A stretch of 47,351 nt of DNA from Chloroflexota bacterium (GTDB lineage: Bacteria; Chloroflexota; Dehalococcoidia; DSGV01), in contig JAJYLG010000016.1 of assembly GCA_021787985.1 (NCBI GenBank), forward strand, positions 1 through 47,351. The letters are read 5' to 3'. Below the pieces are notes generated by a model. It was given only the letters and a program-made list of their open reading frames with translations, was not told the origin of the DNA and did not search any database. Positions 136-25,544 of this stretch are shown here, piece after piece (the stretch's first letter is position 1; every line of letters begins with the position of its first letter). A program made the position numbers and the translations under genes.

Positions 136-2211
136 TCAAGCCCGGCTGCGGGCCAGCATTGCTTCCGAAGCCGCCCGTGGCAACCCAGCGTAGTGGTCGA
201 ACTCCATGCTGTGCGTGCCCCGGCCCTGCGTCATCGAACGCAGCTCGGTCGTATAGCCGAACAGCTCGGCCAGCGGCACCTCGGCACGGATCACCTGCAG
301 GTTGCCGACCGCCTCCATGCCCACCACGTGTCCGCGGCGTGCGTTGATATCGCCCACGACATCGCCGAGGAAGCTCTCCGGCACTCGGATCTCGAGCTTC
401 ATGACCGGTTCGAGGATGACCGGACCGGCCTTCCCCACCGCCTCGCGCACCCCAATGGAGCCCGCGGTGCGGAACGACAGCTCGTTCGAGTCGACCGGGT
501 GATAGCCCCCGTCGACCAGCGTCACCTCCACGTCGAGCACCGGGTAGCCGGCGAGCACGCCGCTCTCCAGCCGCTCGCGCACGCCGGCCTCCACCGCCCC
601 GATGAACTCCCGCGGGATGGCGCCGCCCACGACCTTGTCGACGAACACCACACCCGAGCCGCGCTCCAGCGGCCGCACGTCCAGCACCACGACGCCATAC
701 TGTCCACGACCGCCCGTTTGGCGGACGAAGCGCCCCTCGGCGTGCGCCGGGCGCGTGATGGTCTCCTTGTAGGCGACCTGCGGGCGGCCGACGTTCGCCT
801 CCACCCGGTACTCACGCCGCATCCGGTCCACCAGGACATCGAGGTGCAGCTCGCCCATGCCGGAGATGATCGTCTGGCCGGTCTCCTTGTCGTAGCGGAC
901 GCGAAACGTCGGGTCCTCCTCGGCCAGGCGGGTGAGGGCCTCGCCCATGCGGTCCTGATCGTCCTTGGTCTTGGGCTCGATCGCCACCGAGATGACTGGC
1001 TCTGGGAACTGGATCGCTTCCAACAGGACGGGATGGTCGGGGTCGCACAGCGTGTCGCCGGTGAAGGTGCCCTTGAGCCCGCCGACGGCCGCGATGCCGC
1101 CGGCCTGGACCTCCTCGATCTCCTCGCGCTTGTCCGCGTGCATCACGTACATGCGGCCCATGCGCTCCCGCTGATGGCGCGCCGTGCTCATCACCTGCTG
1201 GCCCACCCGCACGGTGCCGGAGTAGACGCGGAAGTAGGCCAGCCGCCCCACGTAGGGGTCGGCCACGATCTTGAAGGCCAGGGCGGCCAGCGGCTCGCTG
1301 TCCTCGGCGCGACGCTCCACCGGTTCATCGCTGTCCGGGTGACGGCCTGCGACGGGCGGGATATCGACCGGCGACGGCAGGTAGTCCACCACCGCGTCGA
1401 GCAGCGGCTGCACACCCTTGTTGCGCAACGCGCTGCCGCAGAGCACGGGCGTGACCGTGTTGGCGATCGTCTGGCGCCGGATCGCCTTCTTCAGTTCGGC
1501 CACGCCGATCTCGCGGCCCTCGATGTAGCTGATCATGAGCTGCTCGTCGTGCTCGGCCACGCGCTCCACCAGCAGATCGCGATGGCGCTTCGCCTCGTCG
1601 CGCAACGAGTCCGGGATGGGGCCGATCGTCGGCCGGTCGTCGCGGCTGCCGGTGAAGGTAATCGCCTCCCCCGCGACCAGGTCGACCACTCCGGTGAAGT
1701 CCGCCTCGAAACCGATGGGAATGTGGAGCGTCACCGGCTCCATGCTCAGGCGGTCACGGATCATCTCGACCGTACGCCAGAAGTTCGCGCCCACGCGGTC
1801 CATCTTGTTCACGAAACAGATGCGCGGCACGCGATACTTGTCGGCCTGACGCCACACCGTCTCGCTCTGCGGCTCCACGCCGGCAACCGCGTCGAACACG
1901 ACCACACCGCCGTCAAGCACGCGCAGGCTACGCTCCACCTCGGCGGTGAAGTCGACATGCCCGGGCGTATCGATCAGGTTGATGGTGTGCCCGCCCCAAC
2001 TGCAGGTGGTGGCGGCGGCGGTGATCGTGATGCCGCGCTCGCGCTCTTGCACCATCCAGTCCATCACCGCCGTGCCCTCGTGGGTCTCGCCGATCTTGTA
2101 GGTCCGGCCGGTGTAGAACAGGACACGCTCCGATACCGTCGTCTTGCCGGCGTCGATGTGGGCAATGATCCCGATATTGCGAAGTTTCTCGATCGGTACC
2201 GCGCGTGCCAT
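136..2211 (-). CDS. fusA: Elongation factor G
   Basis: EF-G is the GTPase that moves tRNA and mRNA through the ribosome after peptide transfer and helps split ribosomes. At 691 residues the protein has the normal length. All G motifs are readable: AHIDAGKTT at residues 17-25, RGITI at 59-63, DTPGH at 81-85 and NKMD at 135-138. Domains II to V follow. It starts at an ATG 28 bases below the rpsG stop, in the conserved str operon order between rpsG and tuf. It is expected to be co-transcribed from the promoter near position 3400. Long open frames on the opposite strand here are shadows of this GC-rich gene. Confidence 0.98.
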
Positions 2212-9185: not shown

Positions 9186-9698
9186 TTAGCGCTCGCGCGG
9201 TCCGCGGCGCATCAGCACCGCGCCCGCTCCGGCGCTCACGGCGGCCGCCGCCAGCGCGAGCAGCGCGGCCGCGGGCGTCGTCCGCCCCGGCGTCGGGCCG
9301 CTGCCGGTGGCGGGCATCGCCGTGATCCCCTTGACCTCGCTCACGAAGCCACCGGACGGCGTGGCCGCGGGCGGCTCGCTCGATGCGGGCGTCTGGGGCC
9401 GGATGATAACAACCGGTTCGCCGACGGTTGGGCTGGGCGTGGGGGTGACGGTGGGCGCCTGCTGTCCCGGCGCCGGGCTCGAGGGCGCCGGACCGCTCTC
9501 GGGGATCCCGCTCGATGGCTCGGGACGGACCAGCACGGCGGGGGCGCCCACCGTGGGTTCGTTCGTGGTGGTCACGGGCGTGCCGACGGCCGGCGCCGGT
9601 GAGGCAGCCGGAATCGGCCCTTCCGCGTAGGCCGTCGCCGCGCAGGCGAGCGCCACCACTGCCGCGACCAGGAGCCCCAGGGGCTGCCAGCGCTTCAC
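9186..9698 (-). CDS. Secreted Pro/Thr-rich surface protein with MPATG-like anchor
   Basis: A 170-residue exported protein of unknown function. Residues 1-25 are a signal peptide (cleavage near AYA). A low-complexity Pro/Ala/Thr region follows, with repeats PTVGAPAVLVRP (48-59) and PTVGEPVVIIRP (90-101), plus a weaker copy near 36-47. At 128-132 is MPATG, then a hydrophobic helix (about 142-163) and a basic tail RRGPRER. That order matches LPXTG sorting signals with Met replacing Leu. It may be sortase-anchored or simply a single-pass membrane protein; no sortase gene is in the window. The GTG start has GGAGG seven bases upstream. The leader carries a cyclic-di-GMP-I riboswitch (9758-9863), so expression is expected to follow cyclic-di-GMP. 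Confidence 0.82.
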   Translation of the reverse strand: MKRWQPLGLLVAAVVALACAATAYAEGPIPAASPAPAVGTPVTTTNEPTVGAPAVLVRPEPSSGIPESGPAPSSPAPGQQAPTVTPTPSPTVGEPVVIIRPQTPASSEPPAATPSGGFVSEVKGITAMPATGSGPTPGRTTPAAALLALAAAAVSAGAGAVLMRRGPRER

Positions 9699-9757: not shown

Positions 9758-9863
9758 CCTCGCAGGCAGCCCGGCTGTCCTGTCACTCCCGCACCGCAGG
9801 AGCGAGGTAGACCCGTGGCTTTGCGTGCGCTCGCTTTCGCGAGGCGTGCCCTGGGCAGCGAGG
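9758..9863 (-). ncRNA. Cyclic-di-GMP-I (GEMM-I) riboswitch
   Basis: Reading the minus strand, the closing helix CCUCGC pairs with GCGAGG at the far end. Next come CAGGGCA, the P1b hairpin CUCGC-GAAA-GCGAG with a GNRA tetraloop, and the near-invariant ACGCAAAGCCACGGGUCUA. A second hairpin built on GCUCCUGC/GCGGGAG follows, then the receptor-like AGCCGGGCUGCC. These match the class I cyclic-di-GMP aptamer (Rfam RF01051) in order and spacing. The J1/2 segment reads GGGCACGCC rather than the usual GGGCAAACC, a modest departure. It lies 60 bases above the GTG of the exported surface protein and should control it in cis. Confidence 0.88.
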
Positions 9864-19345: not shown

Positions 19346-21622
19346 CTACTTGGCGGGCGCGTGTCGCTGACGGCGGGCTTCACCCCAGAGTGCGCGCAGC
19401 GGCGCCGGTGCCCACCAGTTCCAGCGGCCGAGCAGCCGCATCAGCGCCGGCACCAATAGCACCCGCACCAGCGTCGCGTCCAGCGCCACCGCCAGCGCCA
19501 TGCCGACTCCCATCGCCTTCAGGTACTCCAGCCCTCCGGCGATCATCGCGCCGAACACCACCACCTGCAGCGCCGCCGCGCTGGTGATCACCCTGCCGGT
19601 CCGTGCCAGCCCCGCGGCGACGGCCTCCGTCGTGTTGCCGCTGCGGTCGTACTCCTCGCGCATCCGGCTCAGCAGAAAGACCTCGTAGTCCATCGAGAGC
19701 CCGAACAGCACGCCGAACATCAGCACCGGGAGCGTCACGTCCACCGTACCGGTGCTGTGGAAGCGCAGCAGCCCCTGCAGATGGCCGTCCTGGAAGCCCC
19801 AGACCAAGACCCCGTACGAGGCGGTGATCGAGAGCCCGTCCATCACCACCGCCTTCACCGGCAGCACCACGGAGCGGAACACGAACACCAGGACGACCAA
19901 CATCGCCAGCACCACGACCGCCACCACCAACGGCGTGCGGGCCGTCACCGCGGCCTTGATGTCCGCCAGGGCGGCGCTGGACCCGCCGACGAGCGGATGG
20001 AACCCTTCCGGGGCGCGAACCTGCCGCAGGGCGAGCACCAGGGCCTGGTCCTCGCGGCTGTTGGGCACATACTCGCTCACCACCCGCAGCTCCGCGGCGT
20101 GCGCGTTGAACATGCGCGCAAGCAATGGCGGCGCACCGAGCCGGCGTAGCCCGTCCGGGCCATCGGCCAGGATCCGCTGGTAGGTGGCGGTGTCCGCATT
20201 GGGCAAGAACGTCACCACGCTGTCAACCCGCTGCACGCCTGGCTGGGCCGCCAGCCGCAGCGCGTACTCGCGCAGCGCGGCCACGCCCGCCGGCGACGTC
20301 AGATCGACGTCCGACCGCACGAAGACCGCCGTCGGCGAAACCTCGTTCGGTGGGAACGACCGCTCCAAGAGGGCGTAGCCGCGATAGGCGTCCGTCGCAT
20401 GCGGCAGGGCTCGCACGTCCTCCATGCCGAGGCGCACGTGCAGGAAAGGGATCCCCAGCACCAGCAGGAGCGTCACTACCCCGGCGGCCACCAGGGGGGC
20501 GCGACGCATCACCCACCCGGCGATCCGCTCCCAGCGGCTTGGCCCGTCCGCCCGCGTGGTGCCTGCCCCCGCGCACGGGCGGAGGGCGGGGGGCCGCGGG
20601 CGCAACACGCGCAACCGGTCGACCCGCGACCCGAGCACGGCCAGGAGCGCCGGCAGCACCGTCAGCGCGCCCACCACGGACAGCGCCACGATCAGCACTC
20701 CCGCCAGCGCCAGCGAGCGGAAGAACCCCAGCGGGAGCAGCGCCATGCCCGCCAGTCCGATCATCACCGCCAGACCGCTGAACGCGACCGCGCGACCCGC
20801 CGTCGCCACCGTGGTGACCACCGCCGGCGCGACCTGCCCACCGCTCCGCCCCAGCTCCTCGCGAAAGCGCGACACGATGAACAGCGAGTAGTCGATCGCG
20901 AGCGCCAGGCCCAGACTGACGAGGATGTTCAAGGCGAAGACGCTCACCGACAGACCACGCGCCAGCAGCGCCAGGGTGGCGCTTCCCAATCCGATGGAGA
21001 GGATGCCCAGTGCCACCGGCAGGGAGGCCGCCACCCCGCTGCCGAACACCAGCAGCAGGACGACCAGCGCCGCCGGCAACGCGATCAGCTCCGCCCGGCG
21101 CAGGTCGTGCTCCGACTGCTGCTGGAAAGCGGCGTACGTGGGCGCCAAGCCGGTGAAGTGTAGCTCGATTGGCACCTGTGGCACCTTCGCGCGCAGCTCG
21201 GGAGCCACCCGCAAGGTCTCGGGATATTGCACCTTCAGATCCACCAGGGCGTAGGTGGTGTGGCCATCGGCCGAGATGAATGCGCTCGTGCCGCCGGAGT
21301 AATACGTGTCGACCTGCTTGACCCGCGCGTCGGAGAGAAGCGGTTGGAGCGTCTGCTTCATCGCCTCGGCGAAGATCGGGTCGGTGGCCCGCCACCGCTC
21401 GGAGTGGAAGACCACCACGATGTCGGACGACCGCACGCCGAGCTGGCGGTCGAGCGCCCTCGCGGCCTGGAACGACTCCGACGAGGGCAGCTCCCACCCA
21501 CCGGGTGTCAAGCGCTGGTTGACATCGCGCGAGACCAGCGCCGCCGGCAGGACCAGGACGACCGCCGCCAGCAGTACCCCCCACCGCAGTCGATAGACGC
21601 TTCGGCCGAGTGCCGCGAACAC
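19346..21622 (-). CDS. MMPL-family RND transporter
   Basis: A 758-residue membrane transporter with the MMPL double layout. One transmembrane helix is followed by an extracytoplasmic domain and a helix bundle, and the set is then repeated. Typical motifs are seen, such as ALAIDYSLFIVSRFREEL (about 240) and the second-half copy FGLSMDYEVFLLSRMREEY (about 655). The GxxxDY(S/T) aspartates are part of the proton relay. Members export lipids, siderophores or drugs in actinobacteria and relatives. The GTG start at 21622 has GGAGG at six bases. It lies 68 bases below a TetR regulator gene, which probably represses the unit. The substrate is unknown. Confidence 0.92.
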   Translation of the reverse strand: MFAALGRSVYRLRWGVLLAAVVLVLPAALVSRDVNQRLTPGGWELPSSESFQAARALDRQLGVRSSDIVVVFHSERWRATDPIFAEAMKQTLQPLLSDARVKQVDTYYSGGTSAFISADGHTTYALVDLKVQYPETLRVAPELRAKVPQVPIELHFTGLAPTYAAFQQQSEHDLRRAELIALPAALVVLLLVFGSGVAASLPVALGILSIGLGSATLALLARGLSVSVFALNILVSLGLALAIDYSLFIVSRFREELGRSGGQVAPAVVTTVATAGRAVAFSGLAVMIGLAGMALLPLGFFRSLALAGVLIVALSVVGALTVLPALLAVLGSRVDRLRVLRPRPPALRPCAGAGTTRADGPSRWERIAGWVMRRAPLVAAGVVTLLLVLGIPFLHVRLGMEDVRALPHATDAYRGYALLERSFPPNEVSPTAVFVRSDVDLTSPAGVAALREYALRLAAQPGVQRVDSVVTFLPNADTATYQRILADGPDGLRRLGAPPLLARMFNAHAAELRVVSEYVPNSREDQALVLALRQVRAPEGFHPLVGGSSAALADIKAAVTARTPLVVAVVVLAMLVVLVFVFRSVVLPVKAVVMDGLSITASYGVLVWGFQDGHLQGLLRFHSTGTVDVTLPVLMFGVLFGLSMDYEVFLLSRMREEYDRSGNTTEAVAAGLARTGRVITSAAALQVVVFGAMIAGGLEYLKAMGVGMALAVALDATLVRVLLVPALMRLLGRWNWWAPAPLRALWGEARRQRHAPAK

Positions 21623-21690
21623 GGGTCCCTCCAGGGACGACAGGATGGCGGGTGCGTCCCTCCGGAGAAGGACTCAGGTGGAGGCGGTGG

Positions 21691-22308
21691 TCACACGGTC
21701 CGCCAGAGGCGGTCCGGCCGCACGGCCCGCAGCACGGTCTCCACCGTCTCGTCCTCGATCCGCGCCGGGTCCAGGTCCGCCCGGCAGCAGGACAGGAACA
21801 TCGCCGCCTCCACCGCCGCCACCAGCACGCGCGCTGTCGCCGGCACGTCCGCCGGCCGCGCTTCGCCGGCGGCGATCGCCCGGCGGAGCTGCTCCTCCAG
21901 CGCCTCCACCGTCGGCGTCCAGGACGCCGCCAGCAGCTCCGCCTCCTCGGACTCCGGATCCACCTGCAGATGGCAGAGCCGCACCAGGTCCGGGTTGGTG
22001 CGCGCCACCGCGAACGACCGTCGCACCTGCTGCTCGACCCGCCGGAGGAACGGCAGCTCCTCCAGTCCCGGGTCGAACAGGGCGAGGTGGTAGGCGTCGG
22101 CGAGCTGCCGATAGAGCGCGATGAACGCGGCCTGCTTCGAGGGGAAGTAGAGGTAGAACGTCCCCTGCGCCACACCCGCCTCGCGCACCACGTCGGCCAC
22201 CGCCGTGCGCCCGTAGCCGTGCGTCGCGAAGACGTGACGAGCCGCCCGCAGCAACTGCTCCCGCCGCACCGCTTCCGATTCGACCCTGGGCGCTCCCGCG
22301 CGTGCCAC
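21691..22308 (-). CDS. TetR-family repressor of the mmpL operon
   Basis: A 205-residue cytoplasmic repressor. Residues about 17-63 are the TetR helix-turn-helix (LLRAARHVFATHGYGRTAVADVVREAG and GTFYLYFPSKQ). The remainder is a helical ligand-binding domain with no recognisable subgroup. The start is GTG with GGAG upstream. It is transcribed before the MMPL transporter in the same direction. A TGACTG-type palindrome overlaps its transcription start, so autorepression and release by an exported compound are likely. The ligand cannot be inferred. Confidence 0.93.
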   Translation of the reverse strand: MARAGAPRVESEAVRREQLLRAARHVFATHGYGRTAVADVVREAGVAQGTFYLYFPSKQAAFIALYRQLADAYHLALFDPGLEELPFLRRVEQQVRRSFAVARTNPDLVRLCHLQVDPESEEAELLAASWTPTVEALEEQLRRAIAAGEARPADVPATARVLVAAVEAAMFLSCCRADLDPARIEDETVETVLRAVRPDRLWRTV

Positions 22309-22329
22309 GGCTGCTCCTTGGCGGCAAGA

Positions 22330-22348
22330 ATGACTGGCAGTCAGTCAT
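22330..22348. promoter_or_regulatory. Probable TetR operator
   Basis: ATGACTG (22330-22336) and CAGTCAT (22342-22348) form 7-bp inverted arms. Nested within them is a 13-bp palindrome, TGACTGGCAGTCA (22331-22343). The site covers the predicted transcription start (about 22343) of the promoter at 22350-22377 and lies 22 bases above the tetR start codon. TGACTG-containing palindromes are common TetR-family operators. Confidence 0.78.
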
Positions 22349-22349
22349 G

Positions 22350-22377
22350 ATTCTGCCACGCTTCGCCTGCGTGTCAA
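22350..22377 (-). promoter_or_regulatory. Promoter of the tetR-mmpL operon
   Basis: On the minus strand: a perfect TTGACA (22377-22372), a 16-base spacer and CAGAAT (22355-22350, four of six bases matching TATAAT). It directly abuts the operator. The rest of 22309-22443 shows no gene. Confidence 0.72.
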
Positions 22378-22443: not shown

Positions 22444-22839
22444 CTACTCCACCTGCTGCGGCGCCGCCGGTCGGCCCGTGGCGGCCCGTCCCCTCCACCC
22501 CTCCTGCGGGCCGGTCGGCGTGACCTCCACCATCCGTCGGCGGATCGCCGCGCCGTCGCGCAGCTTGCGGGACGCCGCCTGCAGGTCATGCCGTGCGCGG
22601 CGCGCCAATACCAGCGCCGCCGCCAGCAGGACCGCAGCTACCGCCGGCAGCGCCGCCGCCGCCGGGCCCATGCTCGACGCCTCCACCGACAGCGGCATGC
22701 GGGGGACCATCCAGGCGAGCATCACCAGCGCCGCCAGCCCCGAGCACCAGCGGCTCGCAGCCGTCTTGCGGCGGCTACGCCGCAACGCCAGCAACCCCTT
22801 GCCGTACAGTCCACTATCGTCCTGCTCGGCGGTGCTCAC
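22444..22839 (-). CDS. Small membrane protein, third gene of the riboswitch operon
   Basis: A 131-residue protein of no recognised family. It has a polar start (STAEQDDSGLYGKGLLALRRSRRK), two predicted membrane helices (about 33-50 and 59-80), and a basic cytoplasmic C-terminal half (ARRARHDLQAASRKLRDGAAIRRR). The frame stays open far upstream, but the GTG at 22839 overlaps the stop of the HD-GYP-like gene as GTGA, the coupling pattern seen elsewhere in the window, and gives a sensible N-terminus. Tight coupling suggests that it works with, or sets the level of, the membrane HD-GYP-like protein. Confidence 0.72.
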   Translation of the reverse strand: MSTAEQDDSGLYGKGLLALRRSRRKTAASRWCSGLAALVMLAWMVPRMPLSVEASSMGPAAAALPAVAAVLLAAALVLARRARHDLQAASRKLRDGAAIRRRMVEVTPTGPQEGWRGRAATGRPAAPQQVE

Positions 22840-24125
22840 CGCGAGCCCATCCCGCCCGCGAACCGTATCCGCGCCATCGCCGGCCAATAGCGCTGGGGCA
22901 GCCCGACAACCGGCACCGGCGCCGAGAGCAGGACGACCAGCGCGCGCGCCACCTCCGGGTCGAGCACGCTGCCCGCCGCCGCCTTCACCCGCTCGACACC
23001 GGCTTCCGCCGCCACCCCGTCCGTAACCAGCGCGTCCCAGAAATGCGCCGCCGTGAGCACCCGCGCCAGCCCCGGCGTCGCCGCCTCGTGCAGGCCCAGC
23101 GGGCCGCGCCCATCCCAACGCTCCCAGCCGCAACGCACGAGCTCCGCGATGGTCGCATCGCCGCTCAGGCGCGCCAGCGACCGCGCGCGTCCCTCGATCA
23201 CCTCGCGTGGCGGTGGCTCCGGGTGGAGCGGCTCCGGCGCCGCGAACGGGCGGATCAGGTGGAGCGAGTCGCCCTCCAGGTGATGGAGCCGGGCCGCCGT
23301 CTCGATCGCCTCGAGCTCCTCCGGCTGCCGACCCATCTTGGCGGCCAGCGCGCGGGCCAGCCGGGCCACGCGCTCGGTGTGCTCCCAGACCGCTGGGCGG
23401 TAGGCCTCGGCCATCTCGACCAGCGCGAGCAGCGTGCCCCGCGCCGACTCCTCGGCCCGGACGGCGTCACGGCGCGCATACCAGACGAAGAACGCCGGCG
23501 CCACCAGCAGCGCCACGGCGCCCGGCCGCTGCGCCGCCGCCAGCGCGGGCGGCACGGCCAGGCCAAACTGCGCGAGCTCCTCCACCAGCAGCCGCCGGTG
23601 CGCCCGCCACCACCCGCGCCAGGGTGAGCACCCCAGCAGCATCGCGGTCGCGACATCGGTCAGCACCAGGTTGCCCGCCAGCGCCAGCGCCGCCGCCGCC
23701 ACGATCCGATACCAGCCCGCCACAGACGTCACGGCGGACGCTCCGGTAAGGCCCAGCGCGAATCCGGCGCCGCCATAGGCCAGCGCCACGGCGCCACCGT
23801 TGAACAGCGCGGTGAGCGGCCGCTTGCGCGACCACAGGATGCCGAATGCCACGCCCGCCAGCCCCACGACCATCGCCGCGGACGCGCCGAGCGCGAGCAG
23901 GGCGGCGAACAGCGGCGCCGTGTCGAGCACCAGCTTGCGCTTCGGCGTGAGCACCAGCGGGAAGCGGCGGGCCAGCGCGATGAAGAGCCCGAAGGTCAGC
24001 GCGAGCCCCGCCATCCTGGGCCCGCTCGCCGGCGGGCCCAGCCACAACGCCGCGGCCGTGGCGGCCACGCCGGCCGTGGCCACCAGCAGCAAGTACCAGC
24101 GGAGCGCGCGCGGCAGGTCACGCAT
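22836..24125 (-). CDS. Membrane protein with degenerate HD-GYP domain
   Basis: A 429-residue protein. Residues about 8-215 hold six or seven hydrophobic segments (a MASE-like sensor region) and residues about 235-400 resemble an HD-GYP cyclic-di-GMP phosphodiesterase domain. The first metal His is present (EHTERVARL, His249). However, the HD pair is HH (LHHLEG, 281-282), the HHE motif is GWE (333-335), GYP is reduced to GP, and the later VaDaYDAL Asp is His361. Most metal ligands are therefore lost, so hydrolysis is unlikely; ligand binding or signalling is possible. It lies 16 bases after the secreted-protein gene and overlaps the next gene by four bases, all downstream of a cyclic-di-GMP-I riboswitch. 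Confidence 0.85.
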   Translation of the reverse strand: MRDLPRALRWYLLLVATAGVAATAAALWLGPPASGPRMAGLALTFGLFIALARRFPLVLTPKRKLVLDTAPLFAALLALGASAAMVVGLAGVAFGILWSRKRPLTALFNGGAVALAYGGAGFALGLTGASAVTSVAGWYRIVAAAALALAGNLVLTDVATAMLLGCSPWRGWWRAHRRLLVEELAQFGLAVPPALAAAQRPGAVALLVAPAFFVWYARRDAVRAEESARGTLLALVEMAEAYRPAVWEHTERVARLARALAAKMGRQPEELEAIETAARLHHLEGDSLHLIRPFAAPEPLHPEPPPREVIEGRARSLARLSGDATIAELVRCGWERWDGRGPLGLHEAATPGLARVLTAAHFWDALVTDGVAAEAGVERVKAAAGSVLDPEVARALVVLLSAPVPVVGLPQRYWPAMARIRFAGGMGSR

Positions 24126-24141
24126 CGCCGCTTATCTCCCT

Positions 24142-24624
24142 TCAGCGACTACGACCGGGCCCCGCGTGGGAGTCACCGCCGGTCTGAACCGTGAACCACT
24201 GCACCATCGGCTGGTGCAGCCGTCCTTGCACCTGCTGGGGCTGCTGACCGCCCACCGTCACCTCGAACAGCGCGGGGCCCGTGCCCGGCGCGTCCACGCG
24301 TGCCACGGCGTAGCCAACCGCCCAGCCATCGCCCCGCGGCAGCCACGCCACCTGGTGCACCCGCGCTCGCACGGTGAAGAGGCCGCTGTCGGCGAGCTTC
24401 GCGGTATCCACGCCGCGCGGCACGTACACGTCCAGCGAGCCGCCGACGCCCGGCAGAGAGGCGAGGTCGTGCGGCACGCCCAGGCCGAAGGCCACTTGGG
24501 AGCCGCCCACCTGATACACGGGGTCGTCGAGGTCGAACATCACGGAAGCGCCCGCAGGCAAGACGACTGCGAGCGCAAGCACAAGGGCCGCCAGCGGACC
24601 CAGCATCAACAACCAGCGACGCAT
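24142..24624 (-). CDS. Secreted protein under cyclic-di-GMP riboswitch control
   Basis: A 160-residue exported protein of unknown function. A basic start and hydrophobic stretch (residues 1-28, ending near PAGAS) form a signal peptide. The mature part is soluble and beta-rich, with no cysteines, no anchor and no recognised domain. The ATG at 24624 has GGAGG eight bases upstream; a GTG nine bases earlier would collide with that site. It is the first gene after the riboswitch at 24697-24795 and lies 16 bases before the HD-GYP-like gene. By analogy with other riboswitch-controlled exported proteins, a role in the cell surface, adhesion or matrix is possible, but nothing in the protein shows it. 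Confidence 0.78.
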   Translation of the reverse strand: MRRWLLMLGPLAALVLALAVVLPAGASVMFDLDDPVYQVGGSQVAFGLGVPHDLASLPGVGGSLDVYVPRGVDTAKLADSGLFTVRARVHQVAWLPRGDGWAVGYAVARVDAPGTGPALFEVTVGGQQPQQVQGRLHQPMVQWFTVQTGGDSHAGPGRSR

Positions 24625-24637
24625 CTGCGACACCTCC

Positions 24638-24657
24638 GGCGCCTCGTGGCCGGCGCC
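24638..24657 (-). promoter_or_regulatory. Hairpin next to the ribosome-binding site (candidate expression platform)
   Basis: GGCGCC, an 8-base loop and GGCGCC lie immediately before GGAGG (24637-24633) of the secreted-protein gene. A CCTCC at 24678-24674, between the aptamer and this hairpin, is complementary to that GGAGG. Alternative pairing could hide or expose the ribosome-binding site depending on ligand state. This is an inference from complementarity only. Confidence 0.5.
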
Positions 24658-24696
24658 CAGCCCGGATATGGCGGGAGGGTCGCTCGTGGCGGCCCA

Positions 24697-24795
24697 CCGC
24701 GCTTCGGCAGCCCGGCGGCCCGCCCGCCTCCCGGCGGGTGAGGGCCCGTGGCTTTGCGTCCCCGTCTCTCGGCGGGTTTGCCCGTTCGCGCGCAG
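24697..24795 (-). ncRNA. Cyclic-di-GMP-I (GEMM-I) riboswitch
   Basis: On the minus strand the aptamer reads CGCGC (pairs with GCGCG at 24702-24698), ACGGGCAAACCCG, a P1b hairpin with a GAGA (GNRA) tetraloop, then the near-invariant GGGACGCAAAGCCACGGGC. A second stem follows (CACCCGCC/GGCGGGCG), then the tetraloop-receptor side GCCGCCGGGCUGCCGAA. Every conserved block of Rfam RF01051 is present in order, including GGGCAAACC. It lies 73 bases above the start of the secreted-protein gene and leads an operon with the HD-GYP-like gene. The interval 24634-24947 holds no protein gene; it contains this element and the leader of hpf on the other strand. Confidence 0.94.
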
Positions 24796-24947
24796 CGGCG
24801 CGCACCGCCCCCTCGGGGCGGCTCGCGCGTATCATCGGCCGACTGCGTGCTCTGCTTAAGGGTTCTCCCCGGGTTGCATGCCGGGTCCCGCACCGGCCGC
24901 TTCCCGCTACAATCGGAAGTACCGCCAGTATTCGGAGGCCAGCAACG

Positions 24948-25544
24948 GTGCTTCAATTCACGGTCCACGGCCAGCACGTCGAGCTCAACGAGCGGCTACG
25001 CTCCTACCTCGACCGGAAAGTCGGCAAGCTGGACCGCTATCTGTCCACCCTGCGCGACGCCGTCGTGGAGATCCGCCACGAGCCGACGCGAGCCGTCAAC
25101 CAGCGCTACGTCGTCGAGATTACGGCGACCAACCGTGGCGCCACCCTGCGCGCCGAGGAGCGCGCGCCCGACATCTGGACCGCCATCGACAATGCCGCCG
25201 GCGCGATGGCCCGCCAGGCACGCCGGCACAAGGAGCGGCTGCATCGCCTCGAACGCGGGGAAGAGCTCCGCGCGGGCGCCGTCATTGCCAGCGCCGGCGC
25301 CGCGCCGGCCGGCCTCGTCGCCGCCGAGGAGGACGAGGAGGAGATGCTGGAGCGCGTCCTCGGCCGGGTCGTGCGCGTCAAGCGCTTCCCGATGAAGCCG
25401 ATGTCGCAGGAGGAGGCCCTGGCCCAGACGGAGCTGCTGGGACACAACTTCTTCCTCTTCCTCGACTCCGAGACACGACAGTACAGCCTGCTCTACCGGC
25501 GCGACGACGGCGACTACGGGCTGATCGTGCCTCAGGCCGGCTAG
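24948..25544 (+). CDS. hpf: Ribosome hibernation promoting factor, long form
   Basis: Long HPF pairs 70S ribosomes into inactive 100S dimers in stationary phase. The 198-residue protein has the N-terminal HPF/RaiA domain (about 1-100, FTVHGQHVELNERLRSYLDRKVGKLDRYL) and the C-terminal dimerisation domain (about 140-198, VVRVKRFPMKPMSQEEALAQ and YSLLYRRDDGDYGLI). The start is GTG at 24948 with GGAGG nine bases upstream. The reading frame is open upstream, but that part is not HPF-like. A TACAAT at 24908-24913 may be the -10 element; no good -35 is seen. Transcription diverges from the riboswitch operon. Confidence 0.95.
   Translation: MLQFTVHGQHVELNERLRSYLDRKVGKLDRYLSTLRDAVVEIRHEPTRAVNQRYVVEITATNRGATLRAEERAPDIWTAIDNAAGAMARQARRHKERLHRLERGEELRAGAVIASAGAAPAGLVAAEEDEEEMLERVLGRVVRVKRFPMKPMSQEEALAQTELLGHNFFLFLDSETRQYSLLYRRDDGDYGLIVPQAG

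Follow-up and report, generated by a model that had tools for sequence, protein, structure and literature searches.

A cyclic-di-GMP riboswitch aptamer precedes the genes for an exported protein and a MASE9-like membrane receptor with a degenerate HD-GYP domain in a Chloroflexota bacterium

In a Chloroflexota bacterium of the class Dehalococcoidia, a cyclic-di-GMP class I (c-di-GMP-I) riboswitch aptamer lies ahead of genes for an exported all-beta protein (gene 1), a membrane receptor (gene 2) and a small membrane protein (gene 3), all within a stretch of 47,351 nt that was analyzed as a whole and is referred to here as the window (Table 1). The receptor joins a MASE9-like membrane domain to an HD-GYP domain that has lost most of its metal ligands, and the order of aptamer, exported-protein gene and receptor gene recurs in relatives. 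We favor, with a probability of about 0.6, the reading that the riboswitch controls a two-protein sensor, accompanied by a small lineage-specific membrane protein, which forms a feedback loop in the relatives and has become a pseudo-enzyme receptor in the window.

Table 1. Features of the riboswitch-led gene set (window coordinates).
Feature	Position	Strand	Evidence and remarks
Possible long P1 extension, 5' strand	24786..24815	-	CCGCUGCG and neighbors pair with 24674-24706; duplex prediction -38 kcal/mol
c-di-GMP-I riboswitch aptamer	24703..24792	-	RF01051, 46.5 bits (cut-off 35); canonical GGGC and GCUGCC ligand-pocket segments; A where RF03167 has G
Expression platform	24626..24684	-	Anti-Shine-Dalgarno (anti-SD) GCGACCCUCC (~24683-24674) pairs with GGAGG-UG-UCGC (24637-24627); predicted folds and duplexes
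Gene 1, exported all-beta protein, 160 aa	24142..24624	-	ORF; signal peptide residues ~4-22 (hydrophobic segment); DDP motif; family A2/A5; model pLDDT 86.5
Gene 2, membrane receptor, 429 aa	22836..24125	-	MASE9-like/S-component-like domain (residues ~4-222) and degenerate HD-GYP (~235-401); Pfam, A1 profile, residue table, model, Foldseek
MASE9-like membrane domain of gene 2	23460..24116	-	A1 profile 1.4e-66 (the window protein is a row of A1); predicted S-component-like fold
Degenerate HD-GYP domain of gene 2	23001..23423	-	HD_5 match; metal ligands lost
Gene 3, small membrane protein, 131 aa	22444..22839	-	ORF, GTG start overlaps gene 2 stop; hydrophobicity; nearly lineage-specific

An earlier, sequence-only reading of the window had placed a class I aptamer at 24697-24795, and this is borne out by the minus-strand covariance-model match to RF01051, which scores above the threshold of the family with an E-value of 4.7e-6 for the window and 8.4e-8 for the whole genome. 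Scored alone on the aptamer, RF03167 (c-di-GMP-I-GGC) reaches 48.9 bits, slightly above the RF01051 score but under its own cut-off of 59, and the alignment places an A (GACGCAAAGCC) at the defining base where the GGC consensus has G (GACGCGAAGCC); RF03167 was rejected as the true class on these grounds. By eye, the alignment retains the ligand-pocket bases G20, A47 and C92 (GGGCAAACC, GACGCAAAGCC and GGGCUGCC), in what we take to be the Vc2 numbering. The host genome holds 9 GGDEF and 4 EAL matches, so that c-di-GMP is probably made and turned over in this organism, as well as other HD-GYP matches. Each of the four aptamers in this genome is followed by a gene for an exported protein. One of the others also lies in the window (9762-9860, minus strand, 49.8 bits) and leads a 170-aa exported Pro/Thr-rich protein (9186-9698, minus strand) with MPATG, then a hydrophobic helix and Arg at its C-terminus; it looks like a sortase substrate. 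On contig C164 an aptamer precedes a CAP-like secreted protein, and on contig C95 the gene for a secreted 164-aa protein lies ~550 nt downstream of an aptamer and is followed by a signal-peptidase-like gene (loci L001/L002).

On the minus strand, the aptamer and genes 1, 2 and 3 follow one another with intergenic gaps of 16 and -4 nt, in agreement with the sequence-only reading; the gap of -4 is a GTGA overlap between the stop of gene 2 and the start of gene 3. The likely start of gene 1 is the ATG at 24624, 8 nt after GGAGG (24637-24633), which is better placed than the GTG at 24633, the latter being disfavored because it overlaps the Shine-Dalgarno sequence. An uncoupling promoter between the three genes had been named as an observation that would speak against a common unit, and a scan for the sigma-70 consensus found no promoter-like site there; the only sigma-70-like match of the region (TTGACA-16-CAGAAT, 22377-22350) lies past the operon and before a TetR gene, which together with a gene for an MMPL-family transporter makes up the next unit (19346-22377, minus strand). 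GC3 is 0.85-0.93 in all three genes, like that of their neighbors, and the operon is presumably co-transcribed. Upstream of the riboswitch and divergent from it lies hpf, encoding a ribosome-hibernation factor (24957-25541, plus strand); in an Atribacteria MAG and a Bacillota MAG (L154, L159), membrane HD-GYP genes likewise have hpf upstream.

The predicted topography of the leader suggests how the aptamer may act. In predicted folds the Shine-Dalgarno sequence of gene 1 is buried, with an unpaired probability of <=0.01, and a scan of the gene 1 leader found no terminator-like site, which removes a transcription-terminating switch from consideration. Duplex energies place the anti-SD strand on positions shared with the possible P1-extension strand, although this overlap alone is weak evidence because the duplex search ranges themselves overlap and the test is not unbiased. 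SD-sequestering helices that overlap a possible P1 extension are predicted for the window and for three related genomes (G076, G322 and G357); the leaders of G076 and G322 have a like design built from different sequences, which in G076 sets GAAGAGCUCC against GGAGGUUCUUC, and CUUC:GAAG may pair next to them in P1. The riboswitch would most likely hide or expose the ribosome-binding site of gene 1 and thereby control the translation of the sensor pair and gene 3. If the ligand stabilizes P1, the ribosome site would open, and the predicted energies, an indication rather than proof, weakly favor such an ON switch.

Gene 2 is recognized in Pfam by HD_5 alone, at 27.6 bits against a cut-off of 27.2, and its membrane domain matches neither PF20972 (MASE9) nor any other Pfam model. 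That domain aligns with MASE9-containing proteins in alignment A1, whose profile, which includes the window protein, recovers the whole set, and PF20972 itself matches 3 of the 12 rows of this family (best 7.5e-9). The structural model of gene 2 (pLDDT 82) matches the PDB HD-GYP structures DvhD, Bd1817 and PmGH by Foldseek. The model of the membrane domain resembles the ECF S-components RibU and FolT, with target TM-scores of 0.61-0.69 at E-values of only 0.03-0.6, the RibU match having a target TM-score of 0.67-0.69 and an E-value of 0.03-0.04. The best NCBIfam match, NosR (NF053512), falls far under its cut-off (41.5 against 400 bits), and a scan of genome contigs returned no close relatives of the window protein.

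An alignment with eleven full-length relatives, read in what we take to be the PmGH numbering of the metal-ligand positions, shows two of the seven ligands kept (H189 and H221) and five changed: D222 to H, H276 to G, H277 to W, D305 to H, and H250 to a residue other than H that depends on local gap placement. Also missing are the lysine of GK and the tyrosine of GYP. The domain is thus degenerate, as the sequence-only reading had proposed, and with five of its seven metal ligands gone it cannot be a normal phosphodiesterase; it is probably a pseudo-enzyme whose role may lie in partner binding or conformational output. Since GK has lost its lysine, GYP its tyrosine and the HH pair is gone, it is doubtful that the domain still binds c-di-GMP. 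It is very probable, as had been suggested, that c-di-GMP controls the expression of a protein with a phosphodiesterase fold in which most catalytic residues are changed.

The exported protein connects the window to a wider family with the motif W-C-x-D-D-P, of which the window protein has lost W and C and kept DDP; a PDB search with its model gave no significant relative (best E 0.05, TM ~0.2). A profile search of 393 genomes of the class yielded 20 members; in 16 cases the next gene downstream is MASE9-like, with gaps between the two genes of -11 to 107 nt in the class. When 400 genomes from across the phylum were searched, 17 members lay outside the class, and at least 11 of these also precede a MASE9-like gene. 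The same pair occurs in a Thermomicrobiales MAG, the sole useful yield of a contig scan with alignment A3 that otherwise brought up mainly generic HD-GYP proteins. The exported protein and the MASE9-like, ECF-S-component-like membrane domain are a conserved gene pair across the phylum, and their recurrence supports the earlier view that exported protein and receptor belong together. We infer that the two proteins bind each other directly, in which case the exported beta protein would be the extracytoplasmic partner of the adjoining membrane receptor. Gene 3, whose hydrophobicity is consistent with the small membrane protein proposed earlier, has no convincing homologues in 148 genomes of the class and is absent downstream of the other riboswitch-led receptors, and was therefore dropped as a member of a conserved module.

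Aptamer, exported-protein gene and MASE9-like HD-GYP gene stand in this order in five genomes from three families of the class (G000, which is the genome of the window, G024, G357, G322 and G076). In a genome from another class of the phylum (G407), the aptamer and the exported-protein gene are followed by a gene for a MASE9-like PAS-GGDEF protein (L238), so that the same front end drives a cyclase, not a phosphodiesterase. The order of riboswitch, exported protein and receptor is present in at least six species. The sequence-only reading had regarded this gene order as without described precedent, which does not hold, since relatives have it, mostly with an intact HD-GYP domain. Within the class, at least 21 of the 94 listed MASE9-like matches, from 17 genomes and seven families, are preceded on their own strand by an aptamer no more than 2.5 kb away, where ~0.05 would be expected by a rough estimate from aptamer density that takes the mean genome as 2.7 Mb and counts related species separately; the window, which prompted the count, is one of the 21. 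Among the matches listed, none has an aptamer downstream and one has it on the opposite strand, and the upstream excess far exceeds the errors of the rough expectation. At the aptamer cut-off, many exported-protein/MASE9 pairs have no aptamer (G055, G003, G043, G064 and G009).

The interval between aptamer and receptor holds a sigma-factor gene at two loci (L066 and L130) and nothing at a third (L129). At the first two (G050:C24 and G016:C66, respectively), the aptamer is followed by a seemingly FliA-like RNA polymerase sigma factor and then by a MASE9-like protein with an intact HD-GYP domain, and their aptamer-receptor spacing of ~1.0 kb is also seen in several more genomes, which suggests the same order there. 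A further locus (L097) carries two divergent c-di-GMP-I aptamers ~350 nt apart (374-461, minus strand, and 816-900, plus strand), one of which leads an exported-protein/MASE9-like pair.

The outputs of these receptors vary between intact HD-GYP, degenerate HD-GYP, histidine kinase and GGDEF (as PAS-GGDEF). The HD-GYP domain is intact in G024, G076, G322, G003, G043, G064 and on contig C154 of G055, and degenerate in the window and on contigs C25 and C196 of G055. The losses in the two degenerate G055 paralogues (L068 and L069) differ, being H to R and D to E in one and HD to QH in the other, beside the intact paralogue of the same genome; this is repeated and independent loss of the active site. 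Such variety of outputs behind one membrane domain would be expected if the exported partner works with the membrane domain and not with any one output. The combination of a shared sensor domain, an exported partner and swappable outputs points to an outside-in sensor.

Most HD-type relatives carry an intact HD-GYP phosphodiesterase, and a feedback loop is for this reason the probable ancestral circuit: c-di-GMP would set how much sensor is made, and the sensor would degrade c-di-GMP upon an outside signal. With an intact HD-GYP domain and an ON switch this would be negative feedback, a rise in c-di-GMP raising the level of the sensor phosphodiesterase. In the window species, where the HD-GYP domain is dead by sequence, a riboswitch-controlled receptor would remain. 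The whole module could instead be decaying in this lineage, the riboswitch still driving expression of a receptor and a partner that no longer function and are on their way to pseudogenes. The missing W-C pair of the exported protein and the aptamer score, which is the lowest of its group (46.5 against 55-77 bits), raise this possibility, and an HD domain that has lost GYP and five of its seven metal ligands would fit it. We nevertheless judge such decay unlikely, as the three frames are open with normal codon-position GC, the operon spacing is precise, and the signal peptide and the membrane domain are retained. The two degenerate HD-GYP paralogues of G055 stand beside a well-kept partner, so that degeneration recurs without gene loss.

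The circuit put forward by the sequence-only reading, in which the degenerate HD-GYP domain binds c-di-GMP, the receptor or decoy passes a signal inside-out to the exported protein, and the riboswitch adjusts the receptor level in response to c-di-GMP too, has a precedent in DvhD, which binds c-di-GMP without hydrolysis through its HD-GYP domain, is thought to signal inside-out (PMC13090378) and is the best PDB fold match of gene 2. Against this circuit, the window protein lacks the lysine of GK, the HH pair and the tyrosine of GYP, though the DvhD lysine near the phosphates may be at another position, and some receptors of the family have a histidine kinase or GGDEF in place of HD-GYP, as is typical of outside-in sensing. 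We consider it less likely still than decay, and the decoy or inside-outside reporter finds no support in a comparative pattern that points to an outside-in sensor. A doubly gated receptor, with c-di-GMP setting the level through the riboswitch and also being read by a non-hydrolyzing HD-GYP domain that acts through the S-component-like domain on the exported beta protein, would be a long shot. Finally, the aptamer might control the exported protein only, with genes 2 and 3 transcribed separately and the HD-GYP link incidental, a notion that draws on the aptamers of the same genome that precede single exported proteins (9762-9860, C164 and C95). The tight spacing of the three genes and the outcome of the sigma-70 consensus scan between them speak against it, and aptamers recur with MASE9-like genes that lack the exported protein (G055:C77, G050:C24 and G016:C66), which makes it highly improbable. 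The riboswitch-controlled two-protein sensor remains our preferred reading.

These comparisons expose a conserved exported partner for a large group of orphan MASE9-like membrane sensors and show that c-di-GMP riboswitches target such sensors repeatedly, with probable feedback of the messenger on the very sensor that degrades it. In the window there is a natural case of an enzyme that is dead by sequence and for which riboswitch, partner and receptor have been kept, making the role of the dead HD-GYP domain directly testable. The literature searched contained neither the conserved exported-protein/MASE9-like pair nor its repeated control by riboswitches. Several of the parts have known counterparts. 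That c-di-GMP-I (GEMM) aptamers precede cyclase and phosphodiesterase genes was recognized from the first description of the family (Weinberg, Sudarsan; reviewed in PMC12564702); the window shares with these the aptamer family and the class of target gene, and differs in that the target is an exported-protein/MASE9-like receptor pair with a phosphodiesterase inactive by sequence.

Degenerate HD-GYP proteins are likewise known (PMC6205966 and PMC12570481). NosR of Burkholderia pseudomallei (NF053512; PMC12570481) has a degenerate HD-GYP domain like that of the window but is a response regulator in a two-component operon, and HdgA and HdgB of Streptomyces (6TM-HD-GYP and 6TM-degenerate HD-GYP; PMC6205966) are membrane HD-GYP proteins that include a degenerate version and for which the available text describes no exported partner or riboswitch. 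DvhD, the HD-GYP c-di-GMP receptor of Desulfovibrio vulgaris that binds without hydrolysis (PMC13090378; PDB 9rbz, 9rc0), is, like gene 2, a membrane protein with an HD-GYP domain that does not hydrolyze (in the window, judged from its residues). DvhD comes with a dCache periplasmic domain, a PAS domain and an operon for the Dvh adhesin and protease; in the window there are instead a MASE9-like domain, an exported protein encoded by its own gene and a riboswitch, and the operon contains no LapG-type protease or giant adhesin. S-component folds have already been published as receptor domains in 5TMR histidine kinases (PMC11109136), and both these receptors and MASE9 (PF20972) fuse an S-component-like membrane sensor to varied outputs, a build that the receptor of the window may share; the window copy is too divergent to match PF20972, and the text of PMC11109136 is silent on MASE and HD-GYP. 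For the exported partner, the functional analogy is DbfQ-DbfS of Vibrio cholerae, a proven relation between an exported partner and another sensor (PMC12714742): a small exported protein is encoded beside a membrane sensor and binds it, although DbfQ belongs to the PepSY proteins and DbfS, a histidine kinase, has a periplasmic sensor, unlike the window pair.
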